From Prolixibacteraceae bacterium (lineage in GTDB: Bacteria > Bacteroidota > Bacteroidia > Bacteroidales > Prolixibacteraceae): DNA of 33,396 nucleotides. This document shows, piece by piece, positions 4,077 to 18,909 of the stretch; within the stretch, counting starts at the first letter, position 1, and each line of letters begins with the position of its first letter. Where the stretch lies: positions 1 to 33,396 of the forward strand of contig JANQII010000201.1 of the NCBI GenBank assembly GCA_028282195.1. The letters run 5' to 3'. The position numbers and the translations under genes are program-made. Below the pieces are notes generated by a model. That model had not been told where the DNA came from and made no database searches. It saw nothing but the letters and a program-made list of their open reading frames with translations.

Positions 4077-5339
4077 ATGGACATCCTTTTTTCAGCACAT
4101 ATAAAAAACACTGGACAGGACAATGTTGTTAAGGCAATACTGGAACTATTAAGCAACCAAAAAAACAAACCGGTTGTTTTCCTCAAAGAGGACAAATACC
4201 CCAACACGGTTCCGAAGGAATACCAAAGCATACACGAACTAAAACAATTGCCGGACAACAAGTATGACCTGATATTGGCTTACAATAAGGTTGGATTGGA
4301 ACAAATCAAAGCTTTTGCAGGCAAGTCAGGTACGCCAGTTATTTATATGGTCAATGCAAGTGACATTGAAAAGGAATACCTTGATGATACCAGCAAGTTC
4401 TCCAGGATCATCCTGTTGGGACCGTTGCAGGATTTTCCTCAGGCTTTGTTGCACAAAGAGGTGATGGTTCCACTCAAATTACCCGTTCCTATCTGTAAAG
4501 CCAATAGTTTTGGGTTCAAGGATAAAAAGAGACCAAAAATCTTAATTGATATTGAACACAGAAATATTCAATATTCCCCACTTTACAGGATTGCCCCTTT
4601 GTTGAACACATTGCCCAATTTTGGGATCAAAATCCTGTCCAGCCAGGCATTGCCAAAAATATTCAATTCCCACATTGGTATTTTGGATAGGGATAAAAGT
4701 GATGTTGAAAAATTGATCGATGAAAGTGATATTGTAATAGGCAGTGGCAATGGCATCCGGCAGGCAATCTCTTTGTGTAAACCTTGTATTGTGGTTGGGG
4801 CAGGAGGATATGGGGGCATAATAACCCCTGAGATCTTTGAACTGCAAAATAAAAACGGTTTTCAGGGAAGGGTTGGGAGCTACTTAAATGAACACCTTCC
4901 TGAGAAATTAATATTGGAAGATATCCTTGACCTGTTGGAATGGGGCAATGAAAGGGTAGATAGGATTGTGCAAGCTAACCGGCAATTATTAAAAAGGAGG
5001 AATGACCTGGCACAAAAACAACTCAATAGTTTAATTGAAAAAGTTATAAAGGAGCACCAACTGTTAAATGGACAAATTGAGCAGGTCGGATTAAAACTGT
5101 CCGGTGCATTCTCCATTGCCCCGTTTTCAAAAGAAAAATTTATCCTGACTAATATACAGACCCAACAGGTACACAGTCAAATTGAAAAAGAGGAAGCTGA
5201 AATTATCAATCTATTTAAACAGGGCCGCACTGTAAAAGATGCCAGGATGAAAAGCGGGTACGAAGAAGAACCTGAAGTGTTCAACGGGTTTGTACGTGAA
5301 TTGGTTAATGAAAAAATATTGCTTGTTCATGGAAACTAA
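4077..5339 (+). CDS. GT-B-like protein with C-terminal PqqD/RRE-like domain
   Basis: A 420-residue cytosolic protein, first gene of the accessory cluster. Residues ~1-140 and ~150-310 look like two Rossmann halves of a GT-B glycosyltransferase or 2-epimerase-type fold; the second contains DIVIGSGNGIRQAISLCKP (about 217-235) followed by a Gly-rich turn GAGGYGG, as at the donor-binding end of such folds. Residues ~338-420 form a separate module: strands FSIAPF and KFILTN, then helix EAEIINLFKQGRTVKDAR and a final helix-strand ending LVNEKILLV. That order (strands, 'L..G.rTv.ea', helix, '..L...kiL') resembles PqqD-like RiPP recognition elements. Its stop overlaps the next start by 11 bp, so the two are translationally coupled. 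Domain calls are by eye, without a profile search. Confidence 0.65.
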   Translation: MDILFSAHIKNTGQDNVVKAILELLSNQKNKPVVFLKEDKYPNTVPKEYQSIHELKQLPDNKYDLILAYNKVGLEQIKAFAGKSGTPVIYMVNASDIEKEYLDDTSKFSRIILLGPLQDFPQALLHKEVMVPLKLPVPICKANSFGFKDKKRPKILIDIEHRNIQYSPLYRIAPLLNTLPNFGIKILSSQALPKIFNSHIGILDRDKSDVEKLIDESDIVIGSGNGIRQAISLCKPCIVVGAGGYGGIITPEIFELQNKNGFQGRVGSYLNEHLPEKLILEDILDLLEWGNERVDRIVQANRQLLKRRNDLAQKQLNSLIEKVIKEHQLLNGQIEQVGLKLSGAFSIAPFSKEKFILTNIQTQQVHSQIEKEEAEIINLFKQGRTVKDARMKSGYEEEPEVFNGFVRELVNEKILLVHGN

Positions 5340-6894
5340 GAAGAAGACATACCGGGAAATCCAGCGTTTTAATCAAAGTGTTATCCATAACTTTGACCTG
5401 AGCATTGTCATGTCTTTTTACAAAAGGTATGAAGAGTTCTCAAAAGTATTGCCTAAAAATGCCCATTATTTCCAACGAAACGGTATTGAAGTGATCATTG
5501 TAATGGATGAACCGACAGAAAAACAACAAGTCCTGGATCTGATCAAACAGTACCCGTTTATTAACTGGAAGCTTATAGTAAACGAACAGGAACATGCCCC
5601 CCGTAACCATGCCCCGGTACTGAACGTGGGTATCAGGCATGCTACCAAAAAGTACATCCTGCAAATCGATCCCGAGGTAGAGTACCACACGGATGTTATC
5701 CTGCAAATGCGGGAAATGCTGGAACATTACCCCGGGCATTACGTGTTGGCTTCCATGTCATATATCCCATCTGAAGTCGAAGTATCAAAAGAAAATGCGG
5801 ACTTTTTTTACTTCATGTTCTATGGTAACATCATGGTTGAACGCAAATACCTGGAACAAATACATGGTTATGACGAAAGTTTTTTAAAATGGGGAGGGGA
5901 AGATGATAACCTGAGGGCAAGGTTGGATATGATTGGGCTGAAAAAATTGCTACTTCCTCAGGCCAAAACATTGCATCGGGAGAAGAATTATGATCCCGGC
6001 GAACGCATTGCCAAAGTAAAAAAGTACCCTACCTCCGAACTGCAACGCATGTTTTACCCAAAAACTATAACTATAAATGAGGAGGATAACTGGGGGCAGG
6101 AATTTGATAAGGTCATTTATGACTGGCAAAACAATCAATACGCTGAAGAATTATGCCGTAACTACCTTGACGGATTTATCCAATATAAAATAAAAGACAG
6201 TTCTGTTTTTGAGAAGCAATACAAGAAACTAATCCTTTGCCAGGCTTATAATGAAACTGAATTTATGAAAGGTTTCCTGGAGGATATGTCCAGGTATTTT
6301 GATGGGATCATCTTGTTGGATGATGGCAGTACCGACAATACCTGGGAATTGGCTTCACACGATAAAATCCTACTCAAAGTAAAGAAGAAAAGAGAATGTT
6401 TTAATGATCTGGAGAACCGGAACACCCTGCTCAACCTGGCCTTTTTTTTTAAATCGGAGTGGTTTTGCTTTATGGATATTGATGAACGGTTTGATGAACG
6501 GTATGTTGATTTTGGGGCTTTTGAGAATAACCCGGAAATTGATGTGGTGGCTTTTAAGGGAGTTTATTTATGGGAAGATGAGAGTACCTACGGGAGAGGG
6601 ACACCATACTCAAAAGATGGGATATTAAGGATTATTCGGATGTTCAGGAACAATGGATATGCTCAAATTAAAACCCACAAAGAGAAACTTCATTTTGCAG
6701 CTTGTCCCTACCATGAGAAAATATTTAATGCGAAAATTTTATTTAAAGATTATGGGGTATTGTCTGAAACAAAACGAGAAAAGAAATATGAGATGTATAC
6801 CAAAGAAGATGAAAGCAAAGATTTATCCGACTATGAATATTTAATTAATGGTAACGTGAAACTAAATAAAATTGAAGATATAAAAATTGACTAA
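5329..6894 (+). CDS. Tandem GT2-GT2 bifunctional glycosyltransferase
   Basis: A 521-residue protein from the ATG at 5329 (METKKKTYREIQ), which overlaps the previous stop; an ATG at 5290 would add 13 poorly fitting residues. The first half is a GT-A/GT2 domain: LSIVMSFYKRYEEF, IEVIIVMDE, a DPE at ~114 in the DXD position, and WGGEDDNLRAR (~187-197), the C-terminal galactosyltransferase motif (Glyco_transf_7C). The second half begins again as a GT2: KLILCQAYNE, LLDDGSTDNTWEL (~331) and FMDIDERFD (~383) as the metal-binding motif. Two successive sugar transfers by one protein are therefore likely. The acceptor is inferred to be the neighbouring peptide or its first sugar. Cytosolic, no membrane helices. 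Confidence 0.85.
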   Translation: METKKKTYREIQRFNQSVIHNFDLSIVMSFYKRYEEFSKVLPKNAHYFQRNGIEVIIVMDEPTEKQQVLDLIKQYPFINWKLIVNEQEHAPRNHAPVLNVGIRHATKKYILQIDPEVEYHTDVILQMREMLEHYPGHYVLASMSYIPSEVEVSKENADFFYFMFYGNIMVERKYLEQIHGYDESFLKWGGEDDNLRARLDMIGLKKLLLPQAKTLHREKNYDPGERIAKVKKYPTSELQRMFYPKTITINEEDNWGQEFDKVIYDWQNNQYAEELCRNYLDGFIQYKIKDSSVFEKQYKKLILCQAYNETEFMKGFLEDMSRYFDGIILLDDGSTDNTWELASHDKILLKVKKKRECFNDLENRNTLLNLAFFFKSEWFCFMDIDERFDERYVDFGAFENNPEIDVVAFKGVYLWEDESTYGRGTPYSKDGILRIIRMFRNNGYAQIKTHKEKLHFAACPYHEKIFNAKILFKDYGVLSETKREKKYEMYTKEDESKDLSDYEYLINGNVKLNKIEDIKID

Positions 6895-7103
6895 AGGACC
6901 GGGGCAGGCTTGCCACCTATCCCCGGTCCACATAGCTAAAAACTACAACTTAATGCAGTTGCTGGCAAAGTTAATAAATTAAGATGTATGCAAGTAAGTA
7001 AACAGGTTTTACAAGTTTGCCATGGTTAAGCCTGAAGTGCCATGTTCCCAACAGGCCGATTGCTTAGCAATTTCCTGCGATAGTGGAAGTACAAGGAATT
7101 ATG
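6889..7103 (+). repeat. Long direct repeat R, copy 1
   Basis: About 215 bp that recurs at 8281-8500 with roughly 93% identity in its central 150 bp (about ten mismatches by eye). It starts at the stop codon of the GT2-GT2 gene with a GC-rich hairpin and ends about 20 bp before the precursor ATG. It thus serves as the intergenic and 5' region of the precursor gene. No terminal inverted repeats were seen. Confidence 0.85.
6896..6929 (+). terminator. GC-rich hairpin after GT2-GT2 gene
   Basis: GGACCGGGG (6896-6904) pairs perfectly with CCCCGGTCC (6921-6929); the loop itself holds GGC/GCC. It starts 2 bp after the stop codon. There is no T-tract, so it may be an RNA-stabilising or attenuating hairpin instead of a full intrinsic terminator. 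The second repeat copy keeps an imperfect form (CCCCGGCTC). Confidence 0.5.
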
Positions 7104-7123
7104 AATCCATAAAATAAATAACT

Positions 7124-7357
7124 ATGGAAAAGAAAAAATTGAAATTGAAGAAATCAAATGAGATCTCTTTTTTAACAGAAGGAGAGCTTGATTCAGCAAA
7201 GGGCGGAATGTGGTGGCTTGGTGCAGCCATTGCTTTGGGAAATGCTATGTATAATGCTATTAATGATGGGGCTGAAGAGAACCGTGAAGGATTTGAAGGT
7301 ACTACAGGAGTTTCTTATGATTTATATTTATATGGCGGCATTCCACCAGGTTGGTGA
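7124..7357 (+). CDS. Double-glycine leader precursor peptide (putative modified peptide)
   Basis: A 77-residue ribosomal precursor. Residues 1-28 form a lysine-rich leader ending LTEGELDSAKGG, which matches the GG-leader consensus: hydrophobic at -12 (L17), Glu at -8, Leu at -7, small or hydrophobic at -4 and Gly-Gly at -2/-1. Cleavage after G28 would release a 49-residue core starting MWWLGAAIALG and ending GGIPPGW. The core has a hydrophobic N-half and an acidic, Gly- and Tyr-rich C-half. It has no Cys and no Lys, so lanthionine, disulfide, S-glycosidic and hydroxylysine chemistry are excluded; Thr60, Thr61, Ser64, four Tyr, several Asn and three Trp remain as possible modification sites. 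The C39 exporter at 9650 is the obvious partner. No known bacteriocin family recognised. Confidence 0.88.
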   Translation: MEKKKLKLKKSNEISFLTEGELDSAKGGMWWLGAAIALGNAMYNAINDGAEENREGFEGTTGVSYDLYLYGGIPPGW

Positions 7358-7369
7358 TAGTTAATATTT

Positions 7370-7393
7370 GATATGGCCTGAAAAGGCCATATC
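7370..7393 (+). terminator. Hairpin between precursor and CPBP gene
   Basis: GATATGGCCT (7370-7379), a GAAA tetraloop, then AGGCCATATC (7384-7393): a perfect 10-bp stem. The following bases, TTCTAAAGG, are only weakly T-rich, so partial read-through is likely. Such a hairpin behind a precursor gene commonly keeps precursor mRNA more abundant than the downstream genes. Confidence 0.65.
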
Positions 7394-7442
7394 TTCTAAA
7401 GGTACTTAATTGTCTGTTTTATCCAAATACAAAAATTGTCTA

Positions 7443-8339
7443 ATGGGGAAAAAATATTTATATAAAGCTGTATCATTTAGTTTTCTATTAATTATAGGTT
7501 TAGTAGTTGTTCAGGGTATAGTATCAGTTTCTATTTTAACAATTTACGATTGGACAAACTCTCAATTCACAATTAATCTTGAGTTTATATCAGTAATTGC
7601 CTGGTTCGGCATGATCTATACATTTTTATTGTCTTTTGTTTTTGTAGCTGGCGATAAAAATGTTAAGTGGTCAGAATTTGGTTTAAGGCGTACCGTTATG
7701 AGGGATTATAAAGGGATGTTTTTAAGCATGTTGGTTGTAGTCGTCTTTTTTCTGGTATATTTATTTGTTTTATCTTTAAACGGATATACCCAATTTGATA
7801 TTGATAGGCCTCATAAGTTACTTTTGCTCTTCTTATTTGCATTGTTTTCGAGCCTATCAGAAGAAATACCAATCAGAGGTTATTTGCTAAATCTTTTCTT
7901 AAAGGAAAATAAAAAATTACCTGGAGTTATTTTTACTTCCGTTTTGTTTTCGATAATGCATTTATTAAATCCTAAAATAAATTTTATTTCTATTTTCAAT
8001 CTATTTCTGGTAGGATGTTTTTTGAGCCTGGTCACGATTTATACCGGGAAGGTTTATTTTGCAGTTTCGATTCATTTCTTTTTTAACTTTTTTGAAGCTC
8101 TTCTGGGATTTAATTTACTTATTGGAGATAATAGTTTTTCTATGCTATCATTAGGCAGAGAGCTTTCGGGTGGTATTATTGAAGGTGGTTATAATGGACT
8201 CACAGGTAGTGTAATTCTAACTGGTCTTTTATTCATATCTATTGTTGCGGTATTGATGCTGTTGAAGAAACAACATGTCAGACTAAAAGGACCGGGGCAG
8301 GCTTGCCCCCTATCCCCGGCTCAAAAGCATAATAAATAA
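7443..8339 (+). CDS. CPBP (CAAX-protease-like) membrane protein 1
   Basis: A 298-residue multi-pass membrane protein from the ATG at 7443; a TTG at 7410 could add 11 residues. The CPBP/ABI family motifs are present: EEIPIR (EE at ~140-141, R145), a His in FSIMHLLNP (~173) and a second His in VSIHFFFNF (~211). Family members are intramembrane glutamic-type proteases and are often linked to bacteriocin self-immunity or peptide processing. Its place directly behind the precursor suits immunity. Oddly, its last ~17 residues (LKGPGQACPLSP...) are encoded inside repeat R copy 2, so the original C-terminus was probably replaced when the repeat arrived. Confidence 0.88.
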   Translation: MGKKYLYKAVSFSFLLIIGLVVVQGIVSVSILTIYDWTNSQFTINLEFISVIAWFGMIYTFLLSFVFVAGDKNVKWSEFGLRRTVMRDYKGMFLSMLVVVVFFLVYLFVLSLNGYTQFDIDRPHKLLLLFLFALFSSLSEEIPIRGYLLNLFLKENKKLPGVIFTSVLFSIMHLLNPKINFISIFNLFLVGCFLSLVTIYTGKVYFAVSIHFFFNFFEALLGFNLLIGDNSFSMLSLGRELSGGIIEGGYNGLTGSVILTGLLFISIVAVLMLLKKQHVRLKGPGQACPLSPAQKHNK

Positions 8340-8500
8340 CCACAACTTAATGCAGTTGCCGGCAAAGTTAATAAATAAAGATGTATGCAAATAAGTAAAC
8401 AGGTTTTACAAGTTTGCCATGGTTAAGCCTGAAATGCCATATTCCCAACAGGTCGATTATTTAGCAATTTCCTGCGATAGGGGAAGTGCAGTGAAATTAT
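8281..8500 (+). repeat. Long direct repeat R, copy 2
   Basis: Second copy of the ~215 bp repeat. It begins inside the 3' end of the CPBP 1 gene and runs to about 20 bp before an ATG at 8523 that is in the homologous position to the precursor ATG of copy 1 (offset 1397-1399 bp). About ten substitutions separate the copies in the central 150 bp. Confidence 0.85.
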
Positions 8501-8522
8501 ACACCCGTAAAAATGAAAAGTT

Positions 8523-8628
8523 ATGGAAAAAAGTTAAGAAAGTTAGAAGTCTGGAAATCAAAGTATTTTCTTTGAACAAAGAAGTATTCTTTTTCCCTCT
8601 GTCAATGCGGGTATTTTTAAAAACTTAA
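8523..8628 (+). pseudogene. Decayed second precursor gene
   Basis: At the position equivalent to the precursor start after repeat copy 2, ATG GAA AAA is kept but the frame stops after four codons (TAA at 8535-8537). One base of frameshift earlier or later opens a lysine-rich leader-like reading (KVKKVRSLEIKVFSLNKEVF) to a stop at 8626-8628, with no Gly-Gly and no core. This suggests a former leader peptide gene that lost its frame and core. The call rests on position and partial similarity, not on a clear homologue. Confidence 0.45.
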
Positions 8629-8681
8629 ACACTTTAAACAGTTCTTTTGGTTAAAACACAAATTTCCATTTGTAGGTTACT

Positions 8682-9644
8682 ATGCATACTGGAAATACAT
8701 TATGCGTAAAATATGCAAATCAAAGTTGGGTTAAATATTTGTCAGCTTATCTATTAACTGTTTTTGTAAAAAAAGTATCAATGAGAAATCAATTTGCAAA
8801 CAGCGGATTTGAATTATCAATTCCTAAAGCTTTTGGAATTGTAATCTTATACAGGGCTTTTATTTTGCCATTAGTCAATTATGCTTTTACTGCTATTGGT
8901 TACTCTCAGCATAATTTGCTCATCCAATCATTAATTATAATTTCAGGAGAAGCAATCTCAAATGTTTTTGTTATTTGGCTTCTTTTAAGGAATATTAACC
9001 TAAATCAGTCCCCTCGTCTAAAAATATCTTATACAGGGATGTTTAGTTTTAAGCTGATGGGGATATTGCTGCTCATAACTGCCGGATACATAATTGCCTA
9101 TCATAATTCAATAGGTATCCTGATCAGCAAAATACCTGCGAGTGATTTTATTGACAAGTTAATAGCATCAATTGAAAGGGATTTTGAAAAGAACCCATAC
9201 CCTTTCATAATTTCAACTTGTATTCTAACACCCATTTTTGAAGAGATCCTATTTCGTGGCATTTTTCTAAAAGGATTCTTAAACAGGTACAAGCCACCAA
9301 TCGCGATTGTCCTTTCTGCATTGGTTTTTGGCCTGTTTCATTTAAATATTCATCAACTTATTAATGCTACAATAATAGGGCTGTTCCTCGCGATTGTGTA
9401 TTACGAGACCAATTCATTGATTTTATGTATTTCGATTCATTGTTTTAACAATGTTGTACCATTCCGTTTTTTTTTAATTGATCATGATGATCGTGCAGAT
9501 ATAGGTCAGATTGCAATTGCTGTATTATTCCTTGTTATTGGGTTTGGGCTTTTAATGCGATATCTAAAAAAAGAAGATGTCCACTGGAAAAGTATCAGAT
9601 GGGTCTTGTTAAAAAAGTCAGTTATCATTAAAAGGTTTCAATAG
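8682..9644 (+). CDS. CPBP (CAAX-protease-like) membrane protein 2
   Basis: A 320-residue multi-pass membrane protein with CPBP motifs: FEEILFRG (EE at ~187-188, R192), His in VFGLFHLNIHQ and His in CISIHCFNN. These are the conserved glutamates, arginine and histidines of the family. The first 33 residues are poorly hydrophobic and an ATG at 8781 (MRNQFANSG) is an alternative start. Its sequence is far from CPBP 1, so it is not a recent duplicate even though the repeats around both are nearly identical. It ends 5 bp before the exporter gene, and may act in immunity or in trimming of the secreted peptide. Confidence 0.88.
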   Translation: MHTGNTLCVKYANQSWVKYLSAYLLTVFVKKVSMRNQFANSGFELSIPKAFGIVILYRAFILPLVNYAFTAIGYSQHNLLIQSLIIISGEAISNVFVIWLLLRNINLNQSPRLKISYTGMFSFKLMGILLLITAGYIIAYHNSIGILISKIPASDFIDKLIASIERDFEKNPYPFIISTCILTPIFEEILFRGIFLKGFLNRYKPPIAIVLSALVFGLFHLNIHQLINATIIGLFLAIVYYETNSLILCISIHCFNNVVPFRFFLIDHDDRADIGQIAIAVLFLVIGFGLLMRYLKKEDVHWKSIRWVLLKKSVIIKRFQ

Positions 9645-9649
9645 ATATT

Positions 9650-11854
9650 ATGAAAAACTTCCCCCACTATAAACAACCCGATGCCATGGACTGTGGCCCA
9701 ACCGCTTTGCGGATCGTGGCCAAATATTACGGTAAGCATTATAACCTTCATATATTAAGGGAGCTGGCCTTTAAGTCAAGTGAAGGGGTGTCCTTACTTT
9801 CGTTAAGTGATGCAGCTGAGAAAATTGGTTTTCGTACCCAGGGGGTACGGCTTGGTTTTGACCAGCTGGAAGAAGCCACGTTCCCTTATATCCTGCACTG
9901 GAACCAAAACCATTTTGTGGTTATCTATAAAATCAAAAAAACAAGGAAAGGGGCTGTTGTTTATATATCCGACCCTGCGGTTGGTTTGCTTAAATATAAC
10001 AAAGAGGAGTTCTTAAAAAGCTGGGCAACTACTAAAGAAGATGGTGAAGATAAAGGGATTGCACTTTTTTTGGATCCTACACCTGACTTTTACATTGAAA
10101 AAGGGGAAAAGGCAAATAAAGCCGGGTTCAACTACCTGCTTAAATACATTAAGCCCTACCGGAAGCTGATATTGCAATTGATATTGGGGTTTCTAACCGG
10201 GAGTTTATTAAGCTTAATCTTGCCTTTCCTGACACAGGCCATAGTTGATGTTGGTATCAGTACCAACAACCTGGATTTTATCGTATTGGTATTGATTGCA
10301 CAACTGGTGCTCACAATAAGCCAAACGGCAGTGGGTTTTGTACGGAGTTGGATCATGCTGCACGTGAGCGTACGGGTCGGTGTTTCATTGATTTCCGATT
10401 TTTTGATCAAGCTGATGAAACTGCCCATCCGTTTTTTTGACACGAAGATGATCGGCGACCTCAGGCAACGGATCGATGATAACCAGCGTATCCAGTCGTT
10501 CCTTACCGGAAGTTTGATCAGCATGTCGTTCGGGGTGTTCATGTTTATCATCTACAGTTTTATCATGGCCTATTACGACTGGCGTATCCTGTTGATCTTT
10601 TACGCCGGGAGTATCCTGTACATTTTATGGATAATAATGTTCCTGAAAAAGCGTAAGGAGATCGACTATAAACGCTTTTCTGTTGCTGCGGCCAACCAAA
10701 GTAACGTTTACCAGTTAATAACAGGGATGCAGGAGATCAAGTTAAATAGTTGCGAAAAACAAAAACGCTGGGAATGGGAGGGCATACAGGCCCGGATGTT
10801 CCGTGTGGGCATTAAAGGGCTGATGCTCCAGCAAAACCAGCAGGCAGGCTCACTGTTCATTAACCAGGCCAAGAACATCCTGATCTCGTTTATTACCGCA
10901 AGGGCCGTAATCGAGGGCAACCTGACCCTGGGGATGATGATGGCCGTACAGTACATCATTGGGCAGTTAAATGGCCCGATCAATGAGTTTATCGGGTTTA
11001 TACAGGCAGCCCAGGATGCCAGGATCAGTTTGGAACGTTTGGGGGAAATACATGAACGGGAGGACGAAGAACCTGAAGATGTTTCGAGGATTGCAGAACT
11101 CCCTGTACAATCCCAACGGGAATTGAAAATCGAAAACCTATCGTTCCACTATGAAGGCCCGCGGTCCCCTAGGGTATTAAAAGATGTCAATTTGGTAATA
11201 CCCGAAAACAAGGTCACTGCAATTGTTGGGACAAGTGGCAGCGGAAAGACTACCCTGCTAAAATTACTTCTGGGCTTTTATCCCCCCAATGAAGGGAAAA
11301 TCAGCCTTGGGGATATTGAATTTCAACAATTCAGCATGGATATGTGGCGCAAGAAATGTGGAACCGTAATGCAGGATGGTTATATTTTTTCCGATACGAT
11401 AGCCAATAATATTGCAGTAGCTGATGATATCCCGGATAAAGATAAGTTGTTCCATGCAGTGACAACAGCAAATATCCGTGAATATATTGAAGGGCTGCCG
11501 TTGCGCTATAACACGAAGATCGGGCAGGAAGGGGTTGGGTTGAGCCAGGGGCAAAAACAACGGATACTGATTGCAAGGGCTGTTTACAAAAACCCGGACT
11601 TTTTGTTCTTTGATGAGGCTACCAATTCACTTGATGCGAACAATGAGGAACAGATCATGAACAAGCTGGACGGGTTCTTCAAAGGGAAAACGGTAATAAC
11701 AGTGGCACACCGTTTAAGCACGGTTAAGAATGCAGGCCAGATCGTTGTGCTGGAAAAAGGGGAGATCATTGAATTAGGAACCCATAATGAATTAGTAGAT
11801 AAAAGAGGTGCTTATTATACTTTGGTTAAGAACCAGTTGGAATTGGGGGACTAA
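9650..11854 (+). CDS. C39-peptidase ABC exporter (PCAT) for GG-leader peptides
   Basis: A 734-residue fusion of peptidase, membrane and ATPase domains. Residues 1-~135 are a C39 cysteine peptidase with MDCGPTALR (Cys15), NHFVVIY (His88) and SDPAVGL (Asp108) as the catalytic triad. Residues ~165-310 and beyond give the six-helix exporter domain. The nucleotide-binding domain has Walker A GTSGSGKTT (~526), signature LSQGQKQR (~630), Walker B FLFFDEATNSLD and the switch AHRLSTV. The enzyme cleaves a double-glycine leader and exports the core across the inner membrane. Its substrate is most likely the 77-residue precursor at 7124, and it works with the HlyD-type protein at 12551. Base composition is visibly GC-richer than the sulfation genes downstream. 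Confidence 0.96.
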   Translation: MKNFPHYKQPDAMDCGPTALRIVAKYYGKHYNLHILRELAFKSSEGVSLLSLSDAAEKIGFRTQGVRLGFDQLEEATFPYILHWNQNHFVVIYKIKKTRKGAVVYISDPAVGLLKYNKEEFLKSWATTKEDGEDKGIALFLDPTPDFYIEKGEKANKAGFNYLLKYIKPYRKLILQLILGFLTGSLLSLILPFLTQAIVDVGISTNNLDFIVLVLIAQLVLTISQTAVGFVRSWIMLHVSVRVGVSLISDFLIKLMKLPIRFFDTKMIGDLRQRIDDNQRIQSFLTGSLISMSFGVFMFIIYSFIMAYYDWRILLIFYAGSILYILWIIMFLKKRKEIDYKRFSVAAANQSNVYQLITGMQEIKLNSCEKQKRWEWEGIQARMFRVGIKGLMLQQNQQAGSLFINQAKNILISFITARAVIEGNLTLGMMMAVQYIIGQLNGPINEFIGFIQAAQDARISLERLGEIHEREDEEPEDVSRIAELPVQSQRELKIENLSFHYEGPRSPRVLKDVNLVIPENKVTAIVGTSGSGKTTLLKLLLGFYPPNEGKISLGDIEFQQFSMDMWRKKCGTVMQDGYIFSDTIANNIAVADDIPDKDKLFHAVTTANIREYIEGLPLRYNTKIGQEGVGLSQGQKQRILIARAVYKNPDFLFFDEATNSLDANNEEQIMNKLDGFFKGKTVITVAHRLSTVKNAGQIVVLEKGEIIELGTHNELVDKRGAYYTLVKNQLELGD

Positions 11855-11855
11855 G

Positions 11856-11938
11856 GACGCAGATTGTTATGGTCATGTATGATGAGCACAGGTTTTTTAA
11901 TATCCTAAAAATCATAACCGATCATGAAAATCAGCGTC
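11856..11938 (+). repeat. GxxExxY-associated inverted repeat element, unit a
   Basis: Starts GACGCAGATTGTTATGGTC and ends in AATCAGCGTC; the ends pair imperfectly (one mismatch in the outer 10 bp). It shares the GTCATGTATGATG segment with unit b and the 'CCTAAAAATCATAA' segment with unit c. It begins right after the exporter stop codon. Confidence 0.75.
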
Positions 11939-11953
11939 TGGAAGAATTAAAGA

Positions 11954-12046
11954 ATGAGTAAAAAATATAAATATTCAGACGTAACAAAAAGGATAACCAA
12001 TGCCTGTTACGCTGTTTATAACCGGTTGGGATTGGGTAATCAGTGA
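11954..12046 (+). pseudogene. Truncated GxxExxY gene (N-terminal 30 codons)
   Basis: A 30-residue ORF, MSKKYKYSDVTKRITNACYA onward, aligned almost residue by residue with the first 27 residues of the intact GxxExxY protein at 12130 (both have AVYN-x-LG). It ends at a TGA that belongs to the start of repeat unit b, so a second repeat-plus-gene unit appears to have been inserted into this older copy. Confidence 0.8.
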
Positions 12047-12115
12047 CGCTGATTATTATGGTCATGTATGATGGACACAAATTTTAGTATCATAAAAATC
12101 ATAATAATCTGCGTC
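12045..12115 (+). repeat. GxxExxY-associated inverted repeat element, unit b
   Basis: GACGCTGATTATTATG (12045-12060) pairs with CATAATAATCTGCGTC (12100-12115) with a single central mismatch, making a 16-bp stem around ~40 bases. It sits directly before the intact GxxExxY gene and terminates the truncated copy. Confidence 0.8.
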
Positions 12116-12129
12116 TGAAAAATAAAAAT

Positions 12130-12534
12130 ATGAACGAAAACTATAAGCATTCAGACATCACAAAAAAGATAATCAACGCCTATTATGCGGTGTATAACCA
12201 GTTGGGCTATGGTTTTCTGGAGAAGGTGTATGAACGTGCCATGATGATAGAATTGCCCAAACATGGTTTAACATGCGAAAGGCAAAAAAATATTAAAGTG
12301 TATTACAATGAAATTGAGATTGGTGACTATTATGCAGACATTATTGTTGAAGATTGTGTCATCATCGAATTAAAAGCCGTAGGATCAATTGCCCCTGAAC
12401 ATGAAGTGCAACTGGTCAACTATTTAAAAGCAACTGAGATTGAAGTAGGTTTACTCCTGAACTTCGGTCCAGCCCCACAATTCAAGAGAAGGGTCTTTAC
12501 AAACAATTATCCTAAAAATCATAATCAATCATGA
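12130..12534 (+). CDS. GxxExxY protein (PDDEXK_3-like)
   Basis: A 134-residue member of the GxxExxY family, a small PD-(D/E)XK-nuclease-like fold. The signature GYGFLEKVYERAM (G-x-x-E-x-x-Y) is at about residues 25-37; YYADIIVEDCVIIELKAV gives the D...E-x-K core, and QLVNYLKAT the conserved helix. The biological role of the family is not settled. The last residues (NYPKNHNQS) are encoded within repeat unit c. The gene interrupts the exporter-adaptor pair and is unlikely to belong to peptide production; flanking repeats suggest it arrived as a small mobile unit. Confidence 0.92.
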   Translation: MNENYKHSDITKKIINAYYAVYNQLGYGFLEKVYERAMMIELPKHGLTCERQKNIKVYYNEIEIGDYYADIIVEDCVIIELKAVGSIAPEHEVQLVNYLKATEIEVGLLLNFGPAPQFKRRVFTNNYPKNHNQS

Positions 12535-12545
12535 TAATCAGCGTC
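12510..12545 (+). repeat. GxxExxY-associated repeat, unit c (right half)
   Basis: CCTAAAAATCATAATCAATC followed by ATGATAATCAGCGTC repeats the right halves of units a and b. It overlaps the 3' end of the GxxExxY gene and closes the inserted unit 5 bp before the HlyD-type gene. Confidence 0.7.
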
Positions 12546-12550
12546 TACTA

Positions 12551-13864
12551 ATGAATCGAAAAAACAACATAGAATTACGGAGCGAAGAAGTACGTGAAAT
12601 ACTTGGAAGCCCACCAAACTGGATTATCCGTAGTTCCATATCAATCATACTGTTGGTGATTATTACGTTACTTATAGGGAGCTACTTTTACAAATACCCG
12701 GATTTGATCAATGGGCGTGTGACAATTGTTTCTGTTAACCCCCCGATACCGGTTGTTGCCAAAGCAAACGGGAAATTGGAACGTTTACTTGTTGCCGATG
12801 GGGAGCAAGTAAAAAAAGGCCAGGTAATTGGGATTATTGAAAACCCTGCTGATTATGAAAGCATAAAAGAACTAAGGCTTTTGTTGGATAGTGTGGGGTT
12901 TATTTTTGAAGGGCCGGAAATGGTTACCGGTTTTGTTTTCCCGGATAAATACAGATTGGGACAGAACCAAAGTCACTATTCGGCATTTGTCGGGCAATGG
13001 TCAGAATATGGGAACTTCATCCAATTTGACTACCTGGGGCAGCAGATGGGGTCGCTTTCCAAACAGGTTTCCGATTATGGGAAATACCTTACCCAGTTAA
13101 AAGAACAAACAAAGGTCCTGGAAAAAGACCTTGCTTTGACCGCCAAACAATTGAGACGGGATTCGGTCCTGTACGGTAAAGGGGTCATGTCGGAAATGCA
13201 ATACGAAAAATCCCAGGCAACATTTTTAAAGCAACAATATTCGTATAAAAACTCGGTCTCGGACCTGTCCAATACCCGGATACGGATCAACCAATTAAAA
13301 CAACAAATACTTGAAATCGGGACCCAGAAGGAGGAACGGGGGAAAAGCTTGTTGACAGCCTTAAAGGAACGTTATGACAATTTAATGGCCCAGCTTGCTG
13401 GCTGGGAGCATTCCTTTGTTTTAAAAGCACCCATTGATGGGAAGGTCACCTTTACCGATTTATGGTCAGAGAACCAGCAAGTCCGGATAGGGGGTACAGT
13501 CTTTACGGTAGTCCCCAATGCCAAACAAGAAATAATCGGGAAACTGGCCATGCCCGTTGCAGGTTCAGGGAAGGTGGGAAAAGGACAGGAGGTAAATATC
13601 AAACTGGACAATTTCCCTTATATGGAATATGGGCTGCTGGAAAGTACAATAACCAATATATCCATGGTACCTGTTTTAAGTGCAGAAGGCGGCTATTATA
13701 CCGCGGAACTGGAGCTGGGCGATGGGCTGGTCACCAATTACAATAAGGAATTACCCTTCATTCAGGAAATGCAGGGTACAGCCGAGATCATTACAAAAGA
13801 CAGAAGGCTTATTGAACGGTTTGTACAGCCGGTTATGGCCATATTTAAAAGAAATATCGAATAA
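12551..13864 (+). CDS. HlyD-type membrane fusion protein for peptide export
   Basis: A 437-residue periplasmic adaptor with one N-terminal transmembrane helix (about 25-48, SISIILLVIITLLIGSYF). The split biotinyl-lipoyl domain is seen in VVAKANGKLERLLVADGEQV and, after a long coiled coil (~155-270, heptad-like KQ and QL runs), in FVLKAPIDGKVTF. A C-terminal barrel follows (INIKLDNFPY-like GQEVNIKLDNFPYMEYG). It bridges the C39 ABC exporter to an outer-membrane channel; no TolC-type gene is in the window, so a channel encoded elsewhere is implied. It was probably adjacent to the exporter gene before the GxxExxY unit entered between them. Confidence 0.93.
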   Translation: MNRKNNIELRSEEVREILGSPPNWIIRSSISIILLVIITLLIGSYFYKYPDLINGRVTIVSVNPPIPVVAKANGKLERLLVADGEQVKKGQVIGIIENPADYESIKELRLLLDSVGFIFEGPEMVTGFVFPDKYRLGQNQSHYSAFVGQWSEYGNFIQFDYLGQQMGSLSKQVSDYGKYLTQLKEQTKVLEKDLALTAKQLRRDSVLYGKGVMSEMQYEKSQATFLKQQYSYKNSVSDLSNTRIRINQLKQQILEIGTQKEERGKSLLTALKERYDNLMAQLAGWEHSFVLKAPIDGKVTFTDLWSENQQVRIGGTVFTVVPNAKQEIIGKLAMPVAGSGKVGKGQEVNIKLDNFPYMEYGLLESTITNISMVPVLSAEGGYYTAELELGDGLVTNYNKELPFIQEMQGTAEIITKDRRLIERFVQPVMAIFKRNIE

Positions 13865-13931
13865 TGTAAGATGATTAATCTGGAAAAATAAGGTGTGCAT
13901 GATTGATTATTGATTTAAACTAAAAATTAGT

Positions 13932-14141
13932 ATGGATAAAAATTTTTTAATTGGGTTAGTGACAGAACGTTGCGGAACGATGAGCCTGGCAGCATTATTA
14001 AGCTCACAACCAGGTATAAAGGTTGTCCATGAATATCAGGCGGGTTCATTTCCCCGGAACTTTTCAAAAGGGGGAATTAACAAAAAATTTAAAAGCCTGT
14101 CTCATTCAAATAGGGATATAGCGCTTTATTGTCTAGGCTGA
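13932..14141 (+). pseudogene. Truncated sulfotransferase
   Basis: A 69-residue ORF that matches the first ~65 residues of the sulfotransferase domain of the fusion protein at 15550: ERCGTMSLAALLSSQPG (5'-phosphosulfate-binding loop), VVHEYQAGSFPRNFS and DIALYCLG parallel GRCGTMSLANLLSSQSG, VPHEYQALPLPWDFS and DVGFYYLN. It stops where the homologue continues, and has no 3'-phosphate-binding region, so it cannot bind PAPS fully. It looks like the remains of a duplicated sulfotransferase, deleted up to the start of the CysC-CysQ gene. Confidence 0.8.
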
Positions 14142-14164
14142 ATTATTTATAAAAAAGAAATACG

Positions 14165-15517
14165 ATGAATGGCAATTGTGAAAATATTTTCTCAGGGAAA
14201 ACAATCTGGTTCACAGGACTATCAGGTTCAGGGAAAACCACTATATCTGGATTATTACAAAAAAGACTAAAAAAGGAAGGTTTTTTTTCTGTTCTATTGG
14301 ATGGGGATAGTGTGCGTTTAGGATTAAACAATGATCTGGGTTATACGATTGCATCGAGGAAAGAAAATATTAGGAGAGTGGCAGAGATAGCAAAGATTAT
14401 TAACAACAACGAAATTACTGTAATTTGTGCTTTTATCTCACCAACTAATGAAATAAGGGGCCTTGCAAAAAAAATTATAGGCTCATCAGGTTTTTACCAA
14501 ATTTTTATTGATACTCCATATGAGTTATGCAAAAAGAGAGATGTTAAAGGGTTATATGAAAAAGCACTTAAAGGGGACATAACAAATTTTACTGGAATTT
14601 CTTCCAAATTTGAGCGGCCAGATGATGCCGATTTAATTGTGAAAACAGACTTGCATTCACCAGGGGTATCTGTGGAATATATATATCAACAGATAAGTTT
14701 TTTATTAAACAAGTCTGTGGATATTGATTTAATAAGAAAAGCAGATACAGCCATTAAGGCTGCAATTAATGCAGGAGTGAAAGTATTAGATATTTATAAT
14801 GCCAACACTTTTGAAGTAAAGTATAAAAATAATCGAAGCATGTTTACAGATGCTGACATAACTTCCCATAAAATTATTTTAAAATTACTTGAAAAAAGTA
14901 ATATACCGGTATTAAGTGAAGAAGGTAAAAATATTGATTTCTCTATCCGAAAGAAATGGAACATATTTTGGTTAGTTGATCCCATTGATGGAACTAAAGA
15001 GTTTGTTAACCGGAATGGAGATTTTACAATAAATATTGCTTTAATTCATAACAATTTACCTGTCCTTGGTATTATTTATGCACCTGTAGCAAGTGAATTA
15101 TTCGTGGGCGTAAAAGGTTTAGGGGCTTATAAAATTAAAACCATTGATACGAATATTTCTATTAGTGATATCCAGAGAGAAGGTCAAAAACTTCCATTAA
15201 ATATCAAGAATAAAGAATTTGGTATTGTGGGGAGTCGGTCTTTCATGAATAAAGGAACAAGGGCTTTTATTGAAGATTTGAAAATTGATCATCCCAATGC
15301 TAAAATTTTTGTAAGGGGTAGTTCTTTAAAGATTTGTATGGTTGCAGAAGGAATTGCTGACATTTATCCACGCCTTGGGCAGACAATGGAATGGGATACA
15401 GCAGCTGGTCATGCACTATTGAAAGCAGCTGGAAAGAATATTTATAAGTTTAATGATCATATTGAACTTACCTATAATAAAAAGAATTTAAGCAATCCGT
15501 ATTTTATTGCTAAATAG
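14165..15517 (+). CDS. APS kinase-PAP phosphatase fusion (CysC-CysQ)
   Basis: A 450-residue fusion. Residues ~8-182 are adenylylsulfate kinase: P-loop GLSGSGKTT (18-26), DGDSVR (46-51), NEIRGLAKK and DVKGLYEKAL, as in CysC. Residues ~186-450 are a CysQ-type 3'(2'),5'-bisphosphate nucleotidase of the inositol monophosphatase superfamily: SEEG (251-254), DPIDGTKEF (272-280, metal site) and EWDTAAGHA (409-417). The protein makes the sulfate donor PAPS and destroys the inhibitory by-product PAP in one polypeptide, a logical pairing for dedicated sulfotransfer. ATP sulfurylase (CysDN) is not in the window. Followed by a tight block of three modification genes; this block is visibly AT-richer than the exporter genes. 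Confidence 0.94.
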   Translation: MNGNCENIFSGKTIWFTGLSGSGKTTISGLLQKRLKKEGFFSVLLDGDSVRLGLNNDLGYTIASRKENIRRVAEIAKIINNNEITVICAFISPTNEIRGLAKKIIGSSGFYQIFIDTPYELCKKRDVKGLYEKALKGDITNFTGISSKFERPDDADLIVKTDLHSPGVSVEYIYQQISFLLNKSVDIDLIRKADTAIKAAINAGVKVLDIYNANTFEVKYKNNRSMFTDADITSHKIILKLLEKSNIPVLSEEGKNIDFSIRKKWNIFWLVDPIDGTKEFVNRNGDFTINIALIHNNLPVLGIIYAPVASELFVGVKGLGAYKIKTIDTNISISDIQREGQKLPLNIKNKEFGIVGSRSFMNKGTRAFIEDLKIDHPNAKIFVRGSSLKICMVAEGIADIYPRLGQTMEWDTAAGHALLKAAGKNIYKFNDHIELTYNKKNLSNPYFIAK

Positions 15518-15549
15518 TCAAAGTGTCATAAATAATTAACACATGAACA

Positions 15550-16944
15550 ATGGAAAAACATTTTAAATTTTCATATGTAATAACCCACAGGGAAACAACA
15601 ATTTCAAGAAAGGAAAATTTAAATTTTATATTAACCTGGGTGTCGTCATTAAAGCTTGATATTGAGATTGTATTAGTTGAACAAGATGATTCACCGAAAG
15701 TTGATATAAGGTCTTTGCCTTGCTGCTGTAAATATGTATTTGCCTTCAATGATGGGTTGTTTAATAGAGGGTGGGGATTGAATGTTGGATTTCGTCATGC
15801 ATCCGGGAATAGTGCGATCGCGTTTGCAGACAATGACGTGGTTGTTGATAAAGGGATACTTGCAGAGGTGTTTAATCTTTTTTCCGATGAAAACAAGTAT
15901 GATGCTATAAAACCTTTCAATAAACTGGTTGATCTCACTAAAGAAGAATCAGAATCAATTTTAAAAGGTAGCCATTCATTTACCGATCTTAAACTGGAAG
16001 ATAGAAAACCAAGACTGGGGATATCTTTTGGCTCTGCATTCACTGTTTTTAGCGTCCATGCTTATGAACGGATAGGAGGATTTGATGAAAGATTTGTCGG
16101 GTGGGGAGGGGAAGATGATGCTATGTCAAAATTTAAGATACCTTTATTGAAAAATGCCTATATCTCAGAAGAAGAAGCATACCACCTATGGCATGAAAGA
16201 TCTCATAATGACTGTAACTTACAGCCCAATTACTTGAATAATGTAAAACTTCTTCACGAATATCAGAATTATACGAAAAAAGATTTATTGTTATTGTGCA
16301 AGGAATCTAAACATAATTTTGGCAAGTTGAACAAAAATAAATCAGAAAGAAGCATACCAAAGAAAGTTATTTTTGGGCTGGGAACGGGAAGATGTGGTAC
16401 GATGAGCCTTGCCAACTTATTGTCCTCTCAGTCAGGTGTTATTGTGCCGCATGAATATCAGGCACTACCCCTACCATGGGATTTTTCGCAAACAGCTTTT
16501 GAAAGGAAGATTGAGAGTTTAAGATATATTAATGGGGATGTTGGGTTTTATTATCTGAACTATGTAGAACAGATCGTAGATATTTTTCCTCAGGTTCGTT
16601 TTGTTTGCTTGAAAAGAAATAAGAATGAGGTTGTTGAGAGTTATATGAAAAAAACCAGGGGTAGGAATCATTGGATGAATCATGATGGTAAAAATTGGAA
16701 GAATGATTCAAAATGGGATAGTGCGTATCCTAAGTTCAACGTCTCCGGTAAATCATCTGCAATAGCAATGTATTATGATATGTATTATAAGAAGATAACT
16801 TATTTAAAAAGAAAATACCCAAATAAAATAAGGGTCTTTGAAATAGATTGCTTAAACAATGAAAAAGGCATTAGGGATATTTTATCTTTTTGTGGTTTCA
16901 CCGAAGAAGAAATGTATATTACACAAAAAAAAATTTATAAATAG
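15550..16944 (+). CDS. GT2 glycosyltransferase-sulfotransferase fusion
   Basis: A 464-residue bifunctional enzyme. Residues ~5-225 are a GT2/GT-A domain: SYVITHRETT, FADNDVVVD (DXD at 94-96), and GGFDERFVGWGGEDDAMSKF (Glyco_transf_7C motif at ~184-190). Residues ~272-464 are a sulfotransferase: FGLGTGRCGTMSLANLLS (5'-phosphosulfate loop, ~275-292) and VRFVCLKRNKNEVVESY (3'-phosphate site with R356 and S364). It could add a sugar and then a sulfate to it, or modify two sites. The domain pair is not one I know as a standard architecture. It begins 32 bp after the CysC-CysQ gene that supplies PAPS. Confidence 0.88.
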   Translation: MEKHFKFSYVITHRETTISRKENLNFILTWVSSLKLDIEIVLVEQDDSPKVDIRSLPCCCKYVFAFNDGLFNRGWGLNVGFRHASGNSAIAFADNDVVVDKGILAEVFNLFSDENKYDAIKPFNKLVDLTKEESESILKGSHSFTDLKLEDRKPRLGISFGSAFTVFSVHAYERIGGFDERFVGWGGEDDAMSKFKIPLLKNAYISEEEAYHLWHERSHNDCNLQPNYLNNVKLLHEYQNYTKKDLLLLCKESKHNFGKLNKNKSERSIPKKVIFGLGTGRCGTMSLANLLSSQSGVIVPHEYQALPLPWDFSQTAFERKIESLRYINGDVGFYYLNYVEQIVDIFPQVRFVCLKRNKNEVVESYMKKTRGRNHWMNHDGKNWKNDSKWDSAYPKFNVSGKSSAIAMYYDMYYKKITYLKRKYPNKIRVFEIDCLNNEKGIRDILSFCGFTEEEMYITQKKIYK

Positions 16945-16955
16945 AATATAATCAA

Positions 16956-17735
16956 ATGGAAGTTAATTTGTATAATGATAGTTTCCCGAACGAACTAGGT
17001 AGCCCTGTCTTTTATCATAAACCGCATGGTGATTCATCAAATGGAATAATCAGTCAAGTACATACTGATTTTATCAAATTATATAAAAGAGTAGTTGCAA
17101 ATAAAGACTCTTATATGTTTACACCACCTGAAAATATTCTATTTTTAACTTATAACAATCGGTTAAGTGTCTCACCAATAGAGAAGTGTTATAAAGCTTA
17201 TAATATTCCGCATGTAGTTTTGGCACAGCATGAAAAAAAATGGGACTGGATGGTTAAAATTAATTCAGTTTTGGAATATTTGCAAAAGAATGAAATAGAA
17301 CAGGAATACATCCTCGCAACTGATGCTAATGATGTTATTATGGTGAATGATCCAAAGCTAATTATCGAAATTTTTGAGTTTTACGAGTGCGGTATTCTGT
17401 TTTGTAACACAAATGCAGATTGGCCAGCTAATGAGAAATACAAAAACTTTGAGAGCTTAAAATATTATACACATCAATTCCATTCGCATTTAAGTGCCGG
17501 AGGTTATATTGCACGAAAAGAGATTTTGATTGGTTATTTGGAAGAAATAGTTTCAAGATATAAAAAAAATGATCCAGAATTGTTTTTCCGGGGTAGGTTT
17601 GATGACCAATTATCATGGCGTTCCCTTCATTTTAGAGATTATCCTAAAATAAAGGTAGATTTTCGTTCCCTTATTTTTAAAAGGTTTGATCTGTTTCGAA
17701 ATTTAGACCAGGAATATGTCACCATCAATCAATAA
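16956..17735 (+). CDS. PLOD-like glycosyltransferase
   Basis: A 259-residue protein resembling the glycosyltransferase domain of procollagen lysyl hydroxylases and related bacterial or viral enzymes. Seen are YILATDANDVIMVNDP (an Asp-rich donor/metal motif in the place of 'TDxYDV'), GILFCNTNADWP ('F.aE..cWP' position), SHLSAGGYIARKEI ('LNSGGfiG') and FDDQLSWRSLHF ('DDQ'). These four blocks come in the family order. Family members transfer galactose or glucose to hydroxylysine or to a previous sugar. Since the precursor core lacks Lys, an existing sugar is the more likely acceptor here. 11 bp from its upstream and 12 bp from its downstream neighbour, so in the same operon. Confidence 0.78.
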   Translation: MEVNLYNDSFPNELGSPVFYHKPHGDSSNGIISQVHTDFIKLYKRVVANKDSYMFTPPENILFLTYNNRLSVSPIEKCYKAYNIPHVVLAQHEKKWDWMVKINSVLEYLQKNEIEQEYILATDANDVIMVNDPKLIIEIFEFYECGILFCNTNADWPANEKYKNFESLKYYTHQFHSHLSAGGYIARKEILIGYLEEIVSRYKKNDPELFFRGRFDDQLSWRSLHFRDYPKIKVDFRSLIFKRFDLFRNLDQEYVTINQ

Positions 17736-17747
17736 ATCATTATTTGT

Positions 17748-18404
17748 ATGCCTATATCACATAAATATAAATGTATTTTTATACACGTGCCTAAATGTGC
17801 GGGCACCAGTATAGAGTATGCGCTGGAAATGCATGGAGATAAAACAGATATTGGGCTAAAACCTTATATCAATCAAAAATACGATTTTGATCATCTCTTT
17901 GGGGCAGGACTTCAGCATTTAACTATCCAAGAGATTCGTTCTATAGTCAGCCCTAAAATATTTAATTCATATTTCAAATTTGCTTTCGTCAGAAATCCTT
18001 GGGATAGATTAGTTTCTTATATCACCTGGAACCATAGAAATAAAAATAAGGATAATTGGAATAATATGGAAACCGTGGAGCTTTCCCAGCATATGTTTGA
18101 TATTGAGATTGCAAACATTTTATCCAAAAGTGACCTGGAAATTGATCAAAATCATCACTTGAAAGAGCAATGGAAATATATTTGTGATGATGGAGGAACC
18201 CTTCAGGTAGATTATGTTGGAAAATACGAAGACTTATTACCTGACTGGAATTCGGTTTGTAATGAGCTCAAGATAAATAAACCGTTGGAAATCAGGATGA
18301 AATCCAATCATAAACCCTTTAATTATTATTTTGATTATAGCACAAGGGAAAAAATTGAGAAAATCTACTTAAAAGATATTGATTTCTTTAATTATAAATT
18401 TTAG
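17748..18404 (+). CDS. Carbohydrate sulfotransferase (Sulfotransfer_2 family)
   Basis: A 218-residue soluble enzyme with the two PAPS-binding signatures: IFIHVPKCAGTSIE (5'-phosphosulfate loop, residues ~10-23) and FAFVRNPWDRLVSYI (3'-phosphate site, ~80-94). This resembles the HNK-1/chondroitin-type sulfotransferase family, which transfers sulfate from PAPS to sugar hydroxyls. It lacks the membrane anchor of the eukaryotic enzymes, so it acts in the cytoplasm. It is the last gene of the modification block and the second complete sulfotransferase domain in the cluster. Confidence 0.92.
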   Translation: MPISHKYKCIFIHVPKCAGTSIEYALEMHGDKTDIGLKPYINQKYDFDHLFGAGLQHLTIQEIRSIVSPKIFNSYFKFAFVRNPWDRLVSYITWNHRNKNKDNWNNMETVELSQHMFDIEIANILSKSDLEIDQNHHLKEQWKYICDDGGTLQVDYVGKYEDLLPDWNSVCNELKINKPLEIRMKSNHKPFNYYFDYSTREKIEKIYLKDIDFFNYKF

Positions 18405-18570
18405 AATGAACTATTTAATTGCTCATTTTAGAACTTCAACTATTGAATCGTTAATTAAATGCGAGCTTCTATTTAAAAAAGAGGCTATTTTCAACATAAA
18501 AAGAGTACTAACATAAACCTGTTTTTAACCGATTGTACCGGGGGCTGTCCTGGTATTTTCTTGAAACAGT

Positions 18571-18733
18571 TTAACTTTTTTGGGAGCATGTAATTTTAAG
18601 CATACATTTTAGCAACTCTGTAAGGAAAAATTCAATATCAACAACACCTCTTTGATTAGCCCTGAAAGCTTTAAGTTTGGCTAAAAGATTCAGCATAGGC
18701 ATTTGTGCTACGGTTGTCGAAGAAGTTTAACAT
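18571..18733 (-). pseudogene. Relic of ISL3/ISAon1-type transposase C-terminus
   Basis: Read on the minus strand, one frame gives LNFFDNRSTNAYAESF and, after a frameshift, the next gives LAKLKAFRANQRGVVDIEFF followed by LTELLK and a stop at 18571-18573. 'NRSTNAxAESFxAKxKxFRAxxRGVxDxxFFL' is the conserved C-terminal end of ISL3/ISAon1-type DDE transposases common in Bacteroidota. The rest of the transposase is gone. Confidence 0.8.
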
Positions 18734-18893: not shown

Positions 18894-18909
18894 CCCCAAA
18901 AGCTGGGGT

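Follow-up and report, generated by a model that had tools for sequence, protein, structure and literature searches.

A candidate gene cluster for a C39-exported ribosomal peptide, possibly bearing sulfated sugars, in a Prolixibacteraceae bacterium

Can a bacterium put sulfated sugars on a ribosomal peptide before exporting it? The question is raised by a set of genes at 4077-18404 of contig JANQII010000201.1 (assembly GCA_028282195.1) from a Prolixibacteraceae bacterium of the phylum Bacteroidota. The window, as we use the word here, is the whole stretch of 33,396 nt that was analysed, and it is contig C109 in a draft genome of 5.84 Mb (348 contigs, 98.4% complete, 2.95% contamination). An earlier note on this DNA had proposed a cluster for a secreted, glycosylated and sulfated ribosomal peptide, and the parts that it named, a precursor, an exporter, an adaptor, two CPBP membrane proteins, glycosyltransferases (GTs) and sulfation genes, were all found at 4077-18404 on one strand from open reading frames (ORFs) and from Pfam and NCBIfam scans, with every accepted gene there reading on the + strand. 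The locus is real, and part of its gene set is recurrent elsewhere. Window proteins were assigned to families by Pfam and NCBIfam scans and by PDB sequence searches, and the motifs cited below are those of CPBP, C39, Walker A, GT and 3′-phosphoadenosine-5′-phosphosulfate (PAPS) sites.

The candidate substrate is a double-glycine (GG) precursor of 77 aa (7124-7357, +), with the double glycine at residues 27-28 closing a 28-residue leader and a core of 49 residues following G28, as had been claimed. It is the only one among the window ORFs of 45-130 aa to match the strict leader pattern M-x(8-30)-E[LMI]-x(2-4)-GG, which was defined after the precursor had been seen; in 200 windows shuffled in two-base blocks the same pattern gave a mean of 0.055 matches and at most 2. 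The core, MWWLGAAIALGNAMYNAINDGAEENREGFEGTTGVSYDLYLYGGIPPGW, contains 0 Cys, 2 Thr (32,33), 1 Ser (36) and 4 Tyr (15,37,40,42), and its computed monoisotopic mass without modification is 5309.45 Da; the precursor has no Pfam or NCBIfam family match. As in clusters for C39-exported double-glycine peptides, it adjoins a C39 peptidase-containing ABC exporter (9650-11854, +) whose Cys, His and Walker A motifs are intact. An HlyD-type adaptor (12551-13864, +; Pfam and NCBIfam) with one transmembrane-like segment is encoded downstream, and two CPBP membrane proteins, one Rce1-like (7410-8339, +; putative immunity protein or protease) and a second at 8682-9644 (+), both carry intact EExxxR, FxxxH and HxxxN motifs. 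Exporter, adaptor and CPBP proteins were thus all confirmed by Pfam.

The enzymes that could add sugars are soluble-looking proteins with recognizable domains, as none of the five GT and sulfotransferase proteins has a transmembrane-like segment by simple hydropathy. Motifs of GT type (WGGEDD, DxD-like) are intact. Four GT domains lie above Pfam cut-offs: two of GT2/GT7 type in 5290-6894 (+; likely ATG start at 5326), one of GT7 type in 15550-16944 and one PLOD-type domain, similar to collagen-hydroxylysine GTs, in 16956-17735 (+; PF25342, 6e-8). When the second GT domain of 5290-6894 is scanned by itself, the top-ranking NCBIfam model is SunS (TIGR04195; 8.2e-8, 31.5 bits, far short of the model's cut-off of 350); with the full-length protein, two other GT models outscore SunS. 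SunS is a peptide S-glycosyltransferase, and it appears in 0/5 of the family lists of control GT2 proteins (best 25 families for three of them; one control comes from L042, a C39 locus of the same genome). The nearest PDB chain to 5290-6894 is 7msk (2.5e-5), which we take to be the glycocin enzyme ThuS, and the protein GT GmaR is also among the matches. The earlier claim had added a GT-B-like protein to the four domains, and here the result is less favorable. This protein of 420 aa (4077-5339, +) has no Pfam match at E 0.05, insignificant NCBIfam matches and no PDB sequence match, and its sole link to GTs is that residues 163-295 remotely resemble five proteins (E 7e-6 to 1.5e-4), of which the two that were scanned are GT4-plus-deacetylase proteins. 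Homologues occurred in its own genome alone among 11 chosen, and in its own plus the five remote relatives in a phylum sample of 395. Its C-terminal ~90 aa are helical, possibly winged-helix, and resemble a PqqD-like domain by eye, with no Pfam match; comparison with RiPP recognition elements (RREs; RiPP, ribosomally synthesized and post-translationally modified peptide) gave hhalign probabilities of ~5% for the C-terminal part and ~1% for the whole protein. A low-confidence model of this part shows three helices, and its best PDB fold match is insignificant (E 1.3), with two lasso B1 RREs among 17 weak fold matches.

For sulfation, the locus encodes an adenosine-5′-phosphosulfate (APS) kinase fused to CysQ (14165-15517, +), with Pfam matches and both domains above NCBIfam cut-offs, which is predicted to make PAPS and to remove 3′-phosphoadenosine-5′-phosphate (PAP). 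Two sulfotransferase domains lie above Pfam cut-offs with both PAPS-binding motifs intact: a Sulfotransfer_3 domain fused to the GT7-type GT in a single protein (15550-16944, +), and a Sulfotransfer_2 protein (17748-18404, +) that is the genome's sole PF03567 match. The sulfation set, a PAPS-making and PAP-removing fusion plus two intact sulfotransferases, is therefore as the earlier note described it. The PLOD-type GT and the Sulfotransfer_2 protein found no usable match in the PDB sequence searches.

We suggest that these parts could form one pathway. The locus would make a C39-exported ribosomal peptide; the proteins of 5290-6894, 15550-16944 and 16956-17735, perhaps with that of 4077-5339, would assemble at least one short sugar chain on its core in the cytosol, and the two sulfotransferases would, most likely, sulfate those sugars from PAPS that the APS kinase-CysQ fusion feeds while clearing PAP. 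The C39 domain would then cleave after Gly28, and exporter and HlyD-type adaptor, together with an outer-membrane channel that was not seen in the window, would release the core, with the CPBP proteins serving in immunity or, alternatively, in further processing. The fusion of GT and sulfotransferase suggests that sulfate goes onto the freshly added sugar, the two reactions following each other on the same molecule. A scan of 20 proteins from 4077-23704, the only part of the genome searched for such genes, revealed no flippase, no polymerase and no lipid-initiating transferase, and this, together with the lack of transmembrane-like segments in the enzymes, points to a cytosolic acceptor that is exported later, for which the C39 substrate would be the obvious candidate. 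Since the core has no Cys, a SunS-like S-linkage is impossible, and the sugar attachment could at most be an O-linked analogue. Whether these soluble enzymes add sugar and sulfate, within the cytosol, to a peptide that is exported by the C39 route is to us an evenly balanced matter, and we would give the same even chance to the 7124 peptide being modified by the gene set, in whole or in part. That this peptide itself bears a sulfated sugar is put forward tentatively, a little short of even.

The case for such a pathway is strengthened by what lies around relatives of the fused GT-sulfotransferase. Scanning short peptide patterns from 15550-16944 over genome contigs gave 27 loci (loci outside the window are given L numbers), and the four closest relatives found, L010-L013, are all from Bacteroidota, with 55-61% identity over the GT domain; three of the four (L010, L011, L012) have a C39/HlyD-type exporter piece within 10 kb of the match. 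L010 contains the only full GT-sulfotransferase fusion found besides that of the window (56% identical). It also encodes three GG precursors, a further GT7C protein, a Sulfotransfer_2 protein and a C39-VKOR protein, as well as a weak LanC-like match below cut-off and, where the contig ends, the beginning of a C39 exporter. In L011, an HlyD-type gene accompanies the ABC portion of an exporter (62% identity to that of the window), whose C39 half lies past the contig end; a GT7C gene overlaps the HlyD stop, and a GT10 protein is also found. In L012, the end of an HlyD-type gene at the contig edge is followed by a GT7C gene, STELLO-type and GT4 genes, a LanC-like protein and a GG precursor, so that a GT gene comes immediately after HlyD in both L011 and L012. 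The fourth locus, L013, has no exporter in its 11.9 kb, its contig ending 0.9 kb before the match, and a GT7C gene adjoins the match. At E 1e-20 the 15550-16944 protein has relatives in 2/344 genomes of the order, namely its own and one with a 34% match.

The window's own genome holds eight C39 matches, and one of them, on contig C26 (L042), repeats part of the theme: two TIGR04149-like precursors (one above cut-off), C39 and HlyD genes, a GT10 relic, an APS kinase, a sulfatase-like protein and a GT2. Of the three APS kinase genes in the genome, two are less than 5 kb away from a C39 domain, an arrangement with a chance of ~0.0006 under random placement (0.002 for 10 kb), computed post hoc. 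The GT10 relic, an ORF of 84 residues (L042 3461-3715), resembles a fucosyltransferase with its middle gone, and the window has a comparable remnant in the N-terminal part of a truncated third sulfotransferase (13932-14141, +), 51% identical to part of the 15550 protein and without a family match. Together these two relics suggest that decoration genes at C39 loci turn over quickly, and L010 and C26 suggest a recurring, rapidly changing gene set. Four loci of Bacteroidota, L010, L012, L042 and a further one, L111, are like the window in having a related exporter or adaptor; the first three also have GTs, while in L111 no GT was noticed on reading. Sulfation genes occur in L010 (sulfotransferases) and L042 (APS kinase). 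The precursors of these four loci contain Cys and mostly match TIGR04149, unlike that of the window, and LanC-like proteins are present in L012 and L111. Two further C39 loci of the genome, on contigs C100 (L043) and C201 (L044), adjoin a GT, and at the remaining four, which were family-scanned in part, no GT was seen on reading the ORFs.

Several findings weigh against the peptide as the acceptor, and we gather them here. Only gene context ties the enzymes to the peptide. The core offers few acceptor residues, three Ser/Thr, four Tyr and no Cys; the precursor has no relatives beyond its own genome among 199 searched, and no second copy there, and it is unlike the precursors of the sister loci, with no TIGR04149 match (cut-off 25 bits) for 7124-7354, whereas 7/8 sister precursors match at E < 0.01, two of them above 25 bits (L042 9947-10150, 26.6; L012 9341-9526, 28.2). 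No leader-binding (RRE) domain was demonstrated in 4077-5339 by Pfam, hhalign or fold search. The sister exporters of L010, L011 and L012 are visible in pieces, each cut by a contig end, and in L010 the fusion and GT7C genes are on the strand opposite to that of the precursor, exporter and Sulfotransfer_2 genes. C26 has no match to the window or L010 sulfotransferases at E 0.01 in its 10 kb, and the relic at 13932 represents decay of part of the sulfation set. Controls on the enzyme families point the same way. Sulfotransfer_2 occurs in 16/393 genomes of the order, the window's own counted, and in the 18 stretches of 4 to 20 kb that hold all 21 other matches of the order, none has a C39 or HlyD match at E 1e-3. 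Likewise, all 23 loci with distant relatives of the fused GT are without C39, HlyD, APS kinase or a related sulfotransferase domain at E 1e-3, none of them titled Bacteroidota and several on contigs that are short or end near the match; one, L019, has a weak match to the Sulfotransfer_2 protein. Neither enzyme family is thus specific to peptides, and from the exporter-free loci we conclude that Sulfotransfer_2 proteins are not generally peptide enzymes and that the window is unusual. The earlier note had suggested asking whether precursor, GTs and sulfotransferases co-occur in other genomes or whether the enzymes stand without precursor and exporter, and the answer is mixed, with exporter pieces near three of the four close relatives and none in the distant and control loci. 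Its central idea, that the sugars and sulfates go onto the exported peptide, retains the recurrence of exporter, precursor, GT and sulfation genes together and is weakened by enzyme families that are not peptide-specific.

The same controls supply the case for a first alternative, namely that the products of the GT and sulfation genes act on a surface glycan, a glycolipid or a glycoprotein while the neighbouring peptide is exported unmodified. The 18/18 and 23/23 exporter-free loci speak for it, and the core, without Cys and with few Ser/Thr, resembles a plain hydrophobic bacteriocin. Plasmids point in this direction too: six plasmid records match 15550-16944, none covering 80% of it, and two match the sulfotransferase half, one among GT genes near a nonribosomal peptide synthetase (Methylomagnum) and the other beside a nucleotide-sugar dehydrogenase (Paracoccus). 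A search with the APS kinase-CysQ fusion returned 455 plasmid records, all below 60% identity, and was uninformative. Set against this are the missing flippase, polymerase and lipid-linked initiation genes in the 20 scanned proteins (again with the rest of the genome not searched), the exporter pieces near three of the four close relatives and the GT gene placed directly after HlyD in L011 and L012. On balance we find the surface-glycan explanation unlikely.

A second alternative keeps the peptide chemistry and changes the substrate: the cluster could modify several C39-exported peptides in trans, for instance the Cys- and Ser-containing precursors of C26, with 7124 being a recent or separate bacteriocin that has its own CPBP immunity. 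This would account for the lack of TIGR04149 similarity in the 7124 leader, and it agrees with the repeated upstream region and the two CPBP genes that belong to the 7124 unit and with C26 having precursors and an APS kinase and no sulfotransferase found in 10 kb. C26, however, possesses its own exporter and adaptor, and the gene order of 4077-18404 is unbroken on one strand, and we hold modification in trans to be improbable.

Modification of the 7124 peptide with sulfated sugars, our preferred reading, has also to be compared with known systems. In the rax system of Xanthomonas, the exporter RaxB belongs to the C39 type and the adaptor RaxA to the HlyD type. The raxX-raxSTAB cluster, as described in PMC6637879, joins a small double-glycine precursor, a PAPS-dependent sulfotransferase, a leader-cutting exporter and an adaptor, and the window is like it in placing sulfotransferase genes with a GG precursor, a C39 exporter and an adaptor. 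The four-gene rax cluster described there has no GT and no CPBP pair, and takes its PAPS from core genes elsewhere (PMC6637879), whereas the window encodes an APS kinase-CysQ of its own and two sulfotransferases, one of which is joined to a GT. In a third alternative, a sulfatyrotide-like case by analogy with RaxST on RaxX, the core Tyr residues (SYDLYLY) might be sulfated directly and any sugars be a separate matter. The core has four Tyr, three of which are grouped about an Asp, and RaxX is Tyr-sulfated and loses its double-glycine leader to RaxB (PMC6637879). The Sulfotransfer_3 domain is nonetheless fused to a GT, and the sugar-gene surroundings of its two plasmid relatives favour sugar over tyrosine as the sulfate acceptor; moreover, no tyrosylprotein sulfotransferase in PDB sequences matched the window sulfotransferases, RaxST itself not having been compared. 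We give direct tyrosine sulfation a slim chance.

Glycocins such as sublancin (sunA/T/I/S) combine a GG-leader peptide, a C39 exporter and a GT, and the O-linked members use Ser/Thr. The window shares a GG precursor, a C39 exporter and GTs with them, including one domain for which SunS is the best NCBIfam model, and is unlike them in having several GTs rather than one and a core with no Cys acceptor for an S-linkage. The similarity to SunS was not accepted as proof that the locus encodes a glycocin, given the score of 31.5 against 350 bits and the Cys-free core. Sulfatyrotides and glycocins are listed as separate classes in PMC9484694. A survey of RiPPs in Bacteroidales describes C39 exporters and GG precursors, with GTs in 2/9 selected clusters, of which BGC9 has a C39 exporter (PMC10352776). 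Its nine selected clusters carry radical S-adenosylmethionine (rSAM), LanC, YcaO or LanM enzymes (PMC10352776), unlike the scanned proteins of the window, where Pfam scans of 4077-23704 found none of the four; the words sulfotransferase and sulfat- do not occur in the main text of the survey (PMC10352776). Among the matches listed in the open-access literature (titles and abstract starts), there is no report of a sulfated and glycosylated RiPP cluster.

Each half of the gene set is thus known, from raxX-raxSTAB and from the glycocins, and their combination, together with a dedicated PAPS supply and a GT fused to a sulfotransferase, appears to make the locus a new variant. A new class, secreted Bacteroidota ribosomal peptides with sulfated oligosaccharides assembled in the cytosol, supplied with PAPS by the locus itself and exported by C39, is a possibility in which we place less than even confidence. 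Sulfated sugars are a typical feature of glycoconjugates in animals and algae. A bacterial peptide bearing them would, if the proposal is true, widen the range of ribosomal peptide products, and the locus would provide a GT-sulfotransferase enzyme on a single polypeptide within a compact genetic system for sulfated glycopeptides. As precursor, core mass and enzyme set are all named, the idea is directly testable.

Some features around the precursor may bear on its regulation and origin. Directly after it, a hairpin (7370-7393, +) is a possible attenuator; the region 7355-7415, picked after inspection, folds at -23.3 kcal/mol with a z of -5.5. The region upstream of the precursor (6893-7098) is a direct repeat of 8286-8495 (90% over 168 nt), the two copies being the only ones in the whole genome and the second lying upstream of the second CPBP gene. 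Behind this second copy a possible decayed copy of the precursor 5′ end (8523-8585, +) can be made out in a weak, AT-rich alignment, and the succession of repeat, leader-like stretch and CPBP gene weakly suggests that a precursor-plus-CPBP unit was duplicated. Across the window there are 5 matches to a Bacteroidota promoter pattern with 3.0 expected, an uninformative result, and sigma-70 and terminator scans of the window gave no more than chance level. To the left of 4077 lie short ORFs and genes that we take to be rlmN and a ferredoxin-NADP reductase-like gene, and 18404 is followed on the right by yidD and a zinc-uptake operon. On this side, 18910-23704 is likewise on the + strand, so strand sharing does not mark the right edge of the cluster.

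Other C39 loci showed further arrangements. Beside the APS kinase and C39 genes of L042, 1187-2692 encodes one protein in which a sulfatase-superfamily domain comes after an N-terminal region that matches GT7N very weakly. Directly 3′ of a C39 exporter gene on contig C327 of the same genome, and overlapping it, L041 13782-16181 encodes a Wzy_C/O-antigen-ligase-like protein with TPR repeats. C39-domain proteins adjoin LanC-like proteins at L044 1-3002 and L010 11335-13599, the latter with VKOR and thioredoxin domains, and no LanB was noticed near either in stretches scanned in part. Finally, the window has a GxxExxY (PDDEXK_3) protein (12130-12534, +; Pfam) between exporter and adaptor, which is probably outside the pathway. 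A gene of this kind stands between a C39 exporter and an HlyD-type gene at four separate loci, namely the window, L040 1442-1720 in the same genome, and L108 3062-3445 and L109 6159-6572 in another, the window's copy being Pfam-scanned and the other three named by resemblance. A short stretch similar to the GxxExxY gene is also present at 11954-12046 of the window.

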